Assembly: GCF_014844075.1 (NCBI RefSeq)
Contig: NZ_CP062165.1
Span: 4,154,001-4,218,000 of the forward strand
Reading direction: 5' to 3'
DNA: 64,000 nt
Source of the DNA: Paenibacillus sp. JNUCC-31
Lineage (GTDB): Bacteria; Bacillota; Bacilli; Paenibacillales; Paenibacillaceae
Shown here piece by piece: positions 10,773 through 55,532 of the stretch. The translations under genes and the position numbers were made by a program. A model generated the notes under the pieces. It was not told the origin of the DNA. It did no database searches and saw nothing but the letters and a program-made list of their open reading frames with translations. The stretch's first letter is position 1; every line of letters begins with the position of its first letter.

Positions 10773-11345
10773 ATGTATAAATGCAAAGGGAGAATTCCCG
10801 AACTAGAGACAGGGCGTCTGCGCCTGCGCAAAATGCGTCGTAGGGACGCAGCCCAGATGTTCGCTTGCTGGTCAGACCGGGACGTGACCCGTTATATGAA
10901 TTTGGCGCCCATGATTGGGACAAGCGAAGCTGCGGACATGATTGGGCTGCTGAACCACATGGCAGGAGAGGAGGAGGCGATTCGCTGGGGAATCGAACTC
11001 AAGGAGACGGGACAGCTTATCGGCAGCTGTGGTTATAACACATGGCAGCTTGAAGGTGCATTCCGGGGCGAAATCGGATATGAGTTGGGCCGTGAACACT
11101 GGCGTCACGGGTACATGACGGAGGCATTTTCGGTCTTGCTGCCTTTCGGGTATGAAACGATGGGTCTCAATCGGATCGAGGCGCTGGTAGACCCGCGTAA
11201 TTTGGCTTCCGGTGAGTTTCTGACGAACTGCGGCTTCACGCGGGAAGGCCTGTTGCGTCAAGTGCAGCATACGTCCACCGGATATAAGGACATGGTGATG
11301 TATTCCCTGCTGTACGATGAGTTTTTGCGTAAGAGAGATAAATAA
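10773..11345 (+). CDS. GNAT acetyltransferase, RimJ/RimL type
   Basis: This 190-residue protein begins with the family pattern LETGRLRLRKMRRRDAAQMF. It has the acetyl-CoA-binding region GYELGREHWRHGYMTEAFSVLLPFGYETMGLNRIEALVDPRN, followed by SGEFLTNCGFTREG. These are hallmarks of the ribosomal-protein-alanine N-acetyltransferase group (YdaF, RimJ/L). Many members modify antibiotics or small amines instead, so the substrate is open. The SD is weak (GGAG, about 9 bases upstream). The gene is followed by repeat element R1. Confidence 0.85.
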   Translation: MYKCKGRIPELETGRLRLRKMRRRDAAQMFACWSDRDVTRYMNLAPMIGTSEAADMIGLLNHMAGEEEAIRWGIELKETGQLIGSCGYNTWQLEGAFRGEIGYELGREHWRHGYMTEAFSVLLPFGYETMGLNRIEALVDPRNLASGEFLTNCGFTREGLLRQVQHTSTGYKDMVMYSLLYDEFLRKRDK

Positions 11346-11354
11346 AAGAAAGCA

Positions 11355-11543
11355 ATATATAATTTTTCACATTGAAATTTACACAATAACGAAGGGGCAG
11401 AACAAAGCTGGAGAAGCGGAGCGTTCGCATTTATCACCGGATTTCCCCTTTTGGAGGGGATGGAAAAAATCTGGGGATAACAGCGATCGAAAGATTGTTC
11501 TGGTCCGTAGTGGGCTGTGTAAATCAATGTTCCAATTATATAG
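11355..11543. repeat. Structured intergenic repeat, family R, copy 1
   Basis: The AT-rich ends (ATATATAATTTTTCACATTG and its partner ending at 11543) are imperfect inverted repeats. Inside them CAGAACAA (11398-11405) pairs with TTGTTCTG (11495-11502), and TTATCACCGGATTT (11431-11444) pairs with AAATCTGGGGATAA (11467-11480), enclosing an apical CCCC/GGGG hairpin. The same architecture and conserved words (GAAGCGGAGC, AATCTGGGGATAA, TTGTTCTG) recur at 45372-45605 and 55338-55485. No ORF is conserved between copies. Confidence 0.88.
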
Positions 11544-11567
11544 AGAATTGAAGAGAGAAGGGTTTGA

Positions 11568-13097
11568 GTGAATACAACCGGAGGTTTGAACCGCAGTTTC
11601 ATCTTGGCAGGATTACTGCTGGCAACCTTTTTGTCAGCGATTGAAGGTACGGTGATTGGACCAGCCGGACCAACCATTGTTAGTGAATTAGGTAGTGTGC
11701 AGCTTCTCAGCTGGATCTTTACCGCATATCTTCTGACGATGGCTGTGAGTACGCCGATCTTTGGCAAAATCAGTGACCTGTACGGGCGTAAGCCGGTATT
11801 TCTGATTGGCTGTGCCTTATTTTTACTGGGTTCACTTCTGTGCTGCCTTTCGCAGAACATGGAGCAACTGATTATTTTTCGCGCGATTCAAGGGATTGGC
11901 GCAGGTGCGGTGGTCCCCGTTACGTTTACAATCATTGGTGACATTTACCGGATTGAAGAACGAGGCAAAATACAAGGCTGGATCAGCTCGGTGTGGGGCA
12001 TTTCATCTTTGGCCGGACCGCTGCTGGGCGGTTACTTTGTAGATAATCTGGGCTGGCAGTGGATTTTTGGATTCAATGTGCCGTTCGGGCTGCTGGCGAT
12101 GTGGTTTGTGTTTCGTTATTTGAAGGAAGAAATGTCTCCGCGTACCGCCAAAATTGACTATATGGGTGCATTGACCTTTACCGTTGGTATTACCGCATTG
12201 CTCTTTGTATTGTCCGCAGGTGGACAGTATTATGCCTGGAGTTCTCCGATTATTGTGGGACTGAGCATTGTGGCTGTTGTTTTTATGATTTTATTTTTTG
12301 TGGTGGAAAAAAGGGCCCAGGCCCCGATGGTTCCTCTCCATCTCTTCCGTATTCGGGACATTCGGGTGGCGAATATCGCCGGACTGTTAACCAGTACCCT
12401 GATGATTGGCCTGACCAGTTATTTGCCTCTTTGGGTGCAGGGGGTTCGGGGCGGTAATGCGACTGAATCGGGGTTGCTGCTTGCACCGATGTCGGTTGGT
12501 TGGCTGATCGGTAGTGTTCTTGCTGGCCGTCTGTTGATGAAGATTGGATCACGCTTAACAGCGGTGATTGGATTAACCGGGATCGCCATTGGATCGGGAG
12601 GACTCTTCCTGGTCGGTGGAACGTCTCCTCAGGCGGTACTGTTTATATTAACCTTTATTTACGGACTCGGCTTCGGATTTGCTTTTACCATATTCACCAT
12701 TATTGCGCAGTCGTCGGTCGGCTATAAGGAACGTGGATCTTCTACGGCGCTGCATACCTTCATGCGTACGCTGGGACAGACCATCGGGGCTGCAGCGTTT
12801 GGTACATGGTTGAATTACCGAATTTCAACGTTGTCGGACGAACAGCATCTTGCAGATGCAGGCATTTCGGAAGGGGATCTGAATCAGCTGCTTGCTCCAC
12901 ATACAGAAGCTGCGCTGTCGGATGACAAATGGGCGCTTCTTCGTAACGTATTGGAAGGAAGTCTGCATTCCTTGTTTGTCATCATGTTTGTCATTGCCAT
13001 TATCTCATGGATAACGACACTGGCCTTGCGCAAACGGCTAATCGTTCCTGAGAAAGCAGCAGATGCTCCGCCAAAGGCCCAAGCTTCCGGGCAGTGA
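11568..13097 (+). CDS. MFS multidrug exporter, 14-helix DHA2 (EmrB/QacA) family
   Basis: This 509-residue transporter has about 14 hydrophobic helices. Motif A is seen in loop 2-3 (GKISDLYGRKPVF) and a drug-antiporter motif in helix 5 (GISSLAGPLLGGYF). DHA2 pumps exchange protons for drugs or dyes. It starts with GTG at 11568 after AAGGG. The gene lies just downstream of repeat R1, which therefore occupies its 5' region. No TetR/MarR gene is directly adjacent; the MarR gene at 13979 is separated by two small genes. Confidence 0.9.
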   Translation: MNTTGGLNRSFILAGLLLATFLSAIEGTVIGPAGPTIVSELGSVQLLSWIFTAYLLTMAVSTPIFGKISDLYGRKPVFLIGCALFLLGSLLCCLSQNMEQLIIFRAIQGIGAGAVVPVTFTIIGDIYRIEERGKIQGWISSVWGISSLAGPLLGGYFVDNLGWQWIFGFNVPFGLLAMWFVFRYLKEEMSPRTAKIDYMGALTFTVGITALLFVLSAGGQYYAWSSPIIVGLSIVAVVFMILFFVVEKRAQAPMVPLHLFRIRDIRVANIAGLLTSTLMIGLTSYLPLWVQGVRGGNATESGLLLAPMSVGWLIGSVLAGRLLMKIGSRLTAVIGLTGIAIGSGGLFLVGGTSPQAVLFILTFIYGLGFGFAFTIFTIIAQSSVGYKERGSSTALHTFMRTLGQTIGAAAFGTWLNYRISTLSDEQHLADAGISEGDLNQLLAPHTEAALSDDKWALLRNVLEGSLHSLFVIMFVIAIISWITTLALRKRLIVPEKAADAPPKAQASGQ

Positions 13098-45371: not shown

Positions 45372-45605
45372 TATATAAATTGAACTAAACATTTACACGA
45401 GAACGGAGAGGACAGAAATAACCTGAAGAAGCGGAGCTAAAAGCTTTCTGAAGGAAAGCTGCATCGGAAGCATACACTGCGCCTTTATCCCCGGATTTTC
45501 TCCTTTGAATAAGGGAACCCAAAAAAATCTGGGGATAACCGTGATCGGAAGGTTGTTCTGTCATCGGAGTGGTAAGTGTAAATATTATTTAGTTCAATTT
45601 ATATA
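45372..45605. repeat. Structured intergenic repeat, family R, copy 2
   Basis: This is the longest copy (234 bp), with clear terminal inverted repeats: TATATAAATTGAACTAAA (45372-45389) and TTTAGTTCAATTTATATA (45588-45605). GACAGAA pairs with TTCTGTC, and TTATCCCCGGATTTT (45485-45499) pairs with AAAATCTGGGGATAA (45524-45538) around a CCTT/AAGG tip. It has an extra arm, AGCTTTC/GAAAGCT (45442-45460). It sits between vanS and vanY. Confidence 0.9.
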
Positions 45606-55297: not shown

Positions 55298-55337
55298 GTG
55301 AGTTTATTCAACTCATCAATGCTTGAAAAATTTGAAA

Positions 55338-55485
55338 TTGTACATTAAACGGAGGGGACTGAACAAATCTGAAGAAGCGGAGCGCTAGCCTTTATCACCG
55401 GATTTCTCCCTTGGAAAAGGGAATCAAGGAAATCTGGGGATAACAGCGATCGGGAGATTGTTCTGTCAACGAAGTGAAAGTACAA
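55338..55485. repeat. Structured intergenic repeat, family R, copy 3
   Basis: This is the shortest copy (148 bp). TTGTAC/GTACAA at the ends, GACTGAACAA (55357-55366) with TTGTTCTGTC (55458-55467), and TTATCACCGGATTTC (55392-55406) with GAAATCTGGGGATAA (55429-55443) form the same nested stems as copies 1 and 2. The apical stem is CCCTT/AAGGG, different in sequence from copy 1 (CCCC/GGGG) but paired in both. Confidence 0.88.
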
Positions 55486-55532
55486 TAGTAAGGTTAGTGC
55501 ATATGTGACTTTAATTTAAGGAGCGAACAACA

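Follow-up and report, generated by a model that had tools for sequence, protein, structure and literature searches.

The 7.55 Mb genome of Paenibacillus sp. JNUCC-31 carries, at 100 places, an element of ~190 bp, MITE-like, with terminal inverted repeats (TATATAAGTTGAAC...), which appears to be a bacterial MITE in kind with a structured transcript and to constitute an undescribed family, its nearest kinds, ERIC and bcr, being compared by description. Its sense placement, the selection seen on the RNA strand and the conservation of an internal junction together are best explained by an intercistronic element acting in mRNA processing or stability, i.e., an ERIC/bcr-like mobile hairpin that moved as DNA, inserts at TA and retains a conserved structured RNA transcript when in sense, a reading to which we would commit about half of our confidence. 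From the analyses taken together, the element probably tunes mRNA processing or stability.

Three of the 100 places lie in the window, by which we mean the entire stretch of 64,000 nucleotides analysed here, and all are on the + strand: copy 1 at 11358..11542 (covariance model R1, 166.8 bits; fold z -5.25), copy 2, a long form with an additional hairpin module, at 45372..45605 (142.5 bits; z -8.58), and copy 3 at 55324..55505 (140.5 bits; z -4.87). The initial annotation had recognised these copies by a set of shared words, all of which are present, and had described them as folded, non-coding and placed between plus-strand genes. This description holds: each copy folds better than all 200 of its dinucleotide shuffles and, by a home-made gene caller, all three sit between + strand genes with no called gene over any of them; copy 1 is overlapped by a 200-aa ORF of the minus strand (11258-11860) that was listed mechanically. 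Of the limits it drew, those of copy 3 have to be widened, by 14 nt on the left and 20 nt on the right according to the covariance model, and the basal stem that it quoted has a mismatch in the same copy (CTGAACAA vs TTGTTCTG).

The own-genome model was built from 30 sequences (alignment A2), and the covariance-model search that the initial annotation had proposed gave 106 rows in this genome, or 100 places once six reverse-strand duplicates are removed. The consensus of 194 nt begins with TATATAAGTTGAACTAAACATTTACAC and closes with the inverted repeat of the same, the ends being of the TATAAGTTGAAC type. From the outside inward, the architecture comprises P1, in which the two terminal repeats pair, a symmetric internal loop, P2, a junction, P3, P4 and an apical hairpin. 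In copy 2, sequence and fold place the two arms of P1, i.e., the left and right terminal inverted repeats, at 45372..45398 (5' arm, +) and 45576..45605 (3' arm, +); in old copies this outer stem is copy-specific. The internal loop is of the form GNA/GNA, with the G and A of both strands (columns 34, 36, 155 and 157) conserved at 98-99%. The junction reads G-N-A-G-A-A, its fixed positions conserved at 94-99%, followed by a GC-NNN-GC mini-hairpin and facing N-A. In copy 1 these correspond to GGA-GA-A and GC-GGA-GC at 11410..11422 (+), as defined by the column frequencies and mini-hairpin covariation of 93 copies, with AA on the opposite junction strand at 11490..11491 (+; columns 137-138), where GA is commonest in the family. 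The pattern GNAGAARC is found in 76 of the 100 own copies as against 6 of 100 reversed copies.

The main measurement of covariation used a model-based alignment of own-genome copies, 93 of them distinct once four identical rows had been left out. In this set, 80.6% of cells pair versus 73.7% after shuffling, two-sided change occurs at 64 of 70 pairs (45.1 shuffled), and the two-sided cells number 532 against 214 ± 13 in shuffled alignments and 172-245 with the partners slid. The signal thus exceeds both kinds of control. Because the 93-copy alignment leans toward the model, the result from the sequence-only alignment A2 matters: its 30 copies have 24 two-sided cells versus 4.7 ± 1.7 when shuffled. 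The apical stem, whose pairing-preserving changes had first drawn attention, does pair but is among the weaker helices (72.7% of cells), the middle helix being stronger at 87.8%; the two base pairs on the outer side of the GNA loop are paired in 98.9% of cells and give a strong signal, and the mini-hairpin likewise covaries over the 93 copies. The outer arms were compared in 90 of the 100 copies, those below 170 nt and two named copies being left out. Divergent ends occur in 37 of these 90 full-length copies, and here the mean pairing energy of a left arm is -13.8 kcal/mol with the right arm of the same copy as against -9.2 with the arms of others (0 of 10000 permutations). The right arm of the same copy ranks as the best partner of all in 15 of the 37, and in only 18 of the 90 overall.

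Compensatory change can also be followed at loci where the element is fixed. In the low-copy genus g33 (11 genomes), the copies read number nine at ilvC-leuA and seven at citZ-icd; Pfam named one neighbouring protein of each kind, and the others were named by similarity. Two-sided change is seen at 8 of 37 pairs in the ilvC-leuA orthologues, with 4 pairs showing some non-pair, and at 7 of 40 pairs in the citZ-icd orthologues, with 10 such pairs. The 16 copies between XkdX and holin genes are conserved without two-sided change: 25 of 32 pairs are invariant and 4 of 512 cells are unpaired.

The initial annotation had left it open whether selection acts on RNA or on hairpin DNA, and the strand-specific signal bears on this choice. 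Among 215 distinct copies (orthologues included, matches covering less than about 120 of the 194 positions left out), the outcome of a one-sided transition is G-U in 319 cells and A-C in 164, cells that are not independent because the copies are related. Counted by pair, G-U exceeds A-C at 43 pairs and the reverse holds at 10, or 28 versus 5 with P1 excluded. A mutation bias of ~1.2 at unpaired positions (C>T 10.4% vs G>A 8.5%; A>G 5.1% vs T>C 4.1%) explains a part of this excess. The asymmetry points to the RNA of the element's strand rather than to a DNA hairpin, so that the RNA half of the original suggestion is favoured and the DNA half disfavoured; together with the covariation in the 93 copies and the compensatory changes at two fixed loci, it argues for selection on RNA structure. 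Long inverted repeats are also known to allow template switching, or quasi-palindrome correction, and the arms could in principle be kept complementary by this process or by gene conversion between copies, with no selection on RNA. The inserted hairpin module does differ from one orthologous copy to another, a pattern that conversion might produce; however, the residues of the internal loop have remained unpaired and conserved instead of being corrected, and the G-U asymmetry also speaks against such an origin, which we consider very doubtful.

The setting of the copies relative to genes is similarly directional. With gene calls from the home-made caller, 73 own-genome copies lie in sense and 11 in antisense between tandem genes, 15 lie at mixed borders and 1 has no called downstream neighbour; 105 copies from other genomes (loci of the core-pattern search, two thirds of them listed with a title; orthologues included, copies near locus ends left out) divide into 71 sense, 9 antisense and 25 mixed. 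GC-skew sampling places the origin near 3.2-3.4 Mb, and by this measure 80 of the 100 own copies are on the leading strand. Tandem genes on the lagging strand hold 5 sense and 2 antisense copies in the own genome and 0 and 2 in the others, and the mixed borders divide into 9 leading and 6 lagging, so that the orientations of transcription and replication are not cleanly separated. A placement in mRNA leaders, one of the original suggestions, proves too narrow in that the copies mostly lie between co-directional genes, e.g., citZ-icd, ilvC-leuA and XkdX-holin, and no theme unites the neighbours read around them. In the own genome (739319-739442, L262) and in G217 (L385), spoVAA lies directly downstream of a copy, an adjacency in two genera that may be due to chance; at the own-genome spoVAA locus an AraC-like gene follows sigF. 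As a stable hairpin that often stands close behind a stop codon, the element might be taken for a transcription terminator or attenuator. This is highly improbable, as the sense-strand consensus lacks a T-run directly after the hairpin and in many copies the next gene, in the same direction, follows within some 40 nt (median distance 38 nt).

The family is spread across the order. BLAST finds a match in 62 of 99 genomes, the own included, and a second model (R2), with at most 12 places scored per genome, finds one in 147 of the 198 genomes of the order surveyed and in 27 of 43 genera. In a class sample of 299 genomes, members of the order among them, 28 match, 27 of them in the own family, and the single match outside it (E 5.9e-4) is at chance level over that many genomes. 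The exact core pattern recovers 120 stretches, and 80 of 80 among the matches listed with a title are from Paenibacillus. Copy number varies widely between genomes: 22 genomes picked for few matches have between one and five copies apiece, and of their 44 matches 30 were read. A deep conservation of positions was considered and rejected: R2 finds the element at only 1 of 15 ilvC, 1 of 5 citZ and 1 of 10 sigF loci, and hence different genera do not have it at the same positions.

The element has no match among phage records and two weak matches among plasmid records, both from Paenibacillus cellulosilyticus. Core-pattern matches were found in 28 IMG/VR contigs (L463-L490), a sample that is phage-like by construction, and here every called neighbour, 28 upstream and 25 downstream, shares the strand of the element. 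Downstream, 16 genes fall into a single cluster that includes a holin confirmed by Pfam (PF05105); upstream, eight genes fall into one that includes an XkdX protein (PF09693). In phage-like structural operons, the element is also seen five times between genes of 488 aa and 136 aa. The conservation of the XkdX-holin position in 16 contigs, the genera with one to five copies and the complex conserved junction might all be accommodated by a stand-alone or ligand-sensing structured RNA, such as a small RNA or a riboswitch-like one, that multiplied by chance. Nevertheless, the absence of a common theme among the neighbours read, of an obvious expression platform and of any Rfam match renders this quite improbable.

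That the element has moved is evident from its sites. The joined flanks of own copies (10 of 12 sites covered) were searched against 58 other genomes, and at several sites the flanks match uninterrupted in close relatives. The site of copy 2 is empty in two of these (G001 and G026), and its junction is clean, the own GC-TA[...]TA-ATTTAAG corresponding to GC-TA-ATTTAAG in the relative (L292), which defines the left and right target-duplication TA at 45372..45373 and 45604..45605. Of nine sites aligned, this is the one clean TA duplication; two are compatible, with TC and CA at the empty site, and the rest have diverged or deleted junctions. The empty sites and the clean duplication establish mobility and bear out the MITE reading offered in the initial annotation, as the short length, lack of coding capacity, inverted ends and high copy number also agree with a bacterial MITE; the REP-like reading that it offered alongside finds no support, given the length and the long terminal inverted repeats. 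Two older copies, at sites 892182 and 4271989, have their sites occupied in many relatives. At the first, the element is present in 10 of 11 orthologues read, the remaining one having a different or rearranged element, and at the second several relatives carry a different or nested element. Copies lying beside or within the remnants of other copies, at 2618107-2618296 of the own genome and in the orthologues of site 4271989, suggest repeated insertion at the same spots.

Neither the solitary end matches of the own genome nor the search for an IS630-type DDE_3 transposase yielded a mobilising enzyme or a parent insertion sequence with the same ends. Terminal-repeat matches outside the known copies, considered as an autonomous partner, turned out to be copies of the element that are deleted, truncated or divergent and lie next to ordinary genes, as did a pair of end matches 1.6 kb apart in opposite orientation; the DDE_3 family matches in 10 of 29 genomes, has no match in most of the element-rich ones, and does not track the element. 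Internally deleted or truncated copies at 3788556-3788651 and 3790032-3790215 of the own genome (L169) flank an ABC-transporter-like gene and thereby mimic the ends of an insertion sequence. Mobility and matching ends, together with a very uneven copy number across genomes and the turnover of positions between genera, would also suit a purely selfish MITE, in which pairing is kept for end matching in transposition or as a DNA-hairpin substrate and the sense excess arises from the harm done by antisense copies. However, such an element leaves the G-U excess on one strand, the compensatory changes that orthologous copies at fixed loci show in their inner stems and the conservation of unpaired loop residues without a ready account, and we consider it rather unlikely as the full explanation.

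The element itself also serves as a site of insertion. Of the 100 own copies, 22 contain an inserted hairpin module of 38-40 nt with the core AGCTTTCTGAAAGAAAGCTRCATCGGAAGCAT; in copy 2 of the window it spans approximately 45438..45480 (+; pattern match 45442-45473) by alignment and pattern search. The own genome has 24 places of this module, 22 within the element and 2 outside, and four relatives (G022, G023, G024 and G008) have 59-66 places, some of them tandem pairs 45-46 nt apart. It occupies two different points of the element and may be present or absent between orthologous copies.

The absence of a named family, noted at the outset, is upheld by the searches. At the gathering score, Rfam 15 recognises in the window only a TPP riboswitch (RF00059; 37047-37160, 79.5 bits), which lies elsewhere; copy 2 searched at E up to 10 gives matches at chance level only, and 14 loci at E up to 0.5 give a single match, outside the element. 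None of the papers listed in searches of openly licensed PMC literature describes the element. The closest parallels lie among other small repeats. ERIC, also named IRU or RU-1, is a small, non-coding, intergenic sequence present in many copies, with a long hairpin transcript, TA ends and target duplication (PMC2229807), features of which the element shares the small non-coding hairpin, the TA ends with target duplication, the intergenic setting and the many copies. In Yersinia, ERIC is described as cotranscribed and its orientation as crucial for the effect on mRNA, with both ERIC and NEMIS acting in mRNA through cleavage (PMC2229807). ERIC is a 127 bp enterobacterial sequence, whereas the present element is longer and has a multi-loop junction and strand-specific covariation, the two being set apart by description. 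The bcr1-bcr3 repeats are MITE-like, reported for the Gram-positive Bacillus cereus group and often found in UTRs and operon spacers, bcr3 going with a longer mRNA half-life in a correlation hedged by its authors (PMC3446304); in being MITE-like and Gram-positive they resemble our element, a comparison by description only. Correia/NEMIS and RUP have terminal inverted repeats, TA ends and target duplication, NEMIS hairpins being cut by RNase III and RUP having an IS630 partner (PMC2229807), whereas no DDE_3 partner tracks the element here. REP is a palindrome of 20-40 bp (PMC3733652), well short of the present element.

By its sequence, the junction resembles a kink-turn, with GNA-GA opposite G/A-A. 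A three-nucleotide bulge is followed by G-A and A-G, the positions over 93 copies being 1b G 94%, 2b A 95%, 1n A 98% and 2n G 73% or A 24%, and a natural k-turn with A at 2n is on record (PMC5061560, PMC3985660). The G-A pairs are not followed by a continuous non-canonical stem, as the mini-hairpin (columns 60-66) intervenes. K-junctions carry their extra helix on the non-bulged strand (PMC10573300), whereas the mini-hairpin interrupts the bulged strand and the following stem is discontinuous.

Taking the intercistronic reading as a guide, some transposase, whatever its kind, would move the non-autonomous element in trans as DNA. Where insertion falls in sense inside a transcription unit, the RNA hairpin would act as an intercistronic element through which the upstream gene's mRNA may be shielded, cut or otherwise set apart from the downstream message, the purine-rich conserved junction being a putative binding site for a host protein or nuclease. 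Useful copies would then be kept and evolve by compensatory change. More speculatively, and with a probability that we regard as low, the element might be a transposable riboregulator, i.e., mobile DNA bearing a protein-binding RNA processing site or switch as its cargo, order-wide and repeatedly fixed between co-directional genes (for the TCA cycle, branched-chain amino acids, sporulation and the phage holin), whose transposition would place new operons under a single RNA-level control system via the kink-turn-like junction.

The novelty lies in the family itself, in how widely it extends across the order, in the strand-specific signal that was measured, in the low-copy loci at which the element is fixed and in the hairpin module nested within it. 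Many bacteria are known to have small repeats that form hairpins, and selection on their RNA can seldom be tested. In the present case, the many copies, the many genomes and the low-copy lineages with fixed copies make such selection directly testable. If the RNA function holds, the family would offer a tractable case of mobile DNA providing ready-made regulators for operons.
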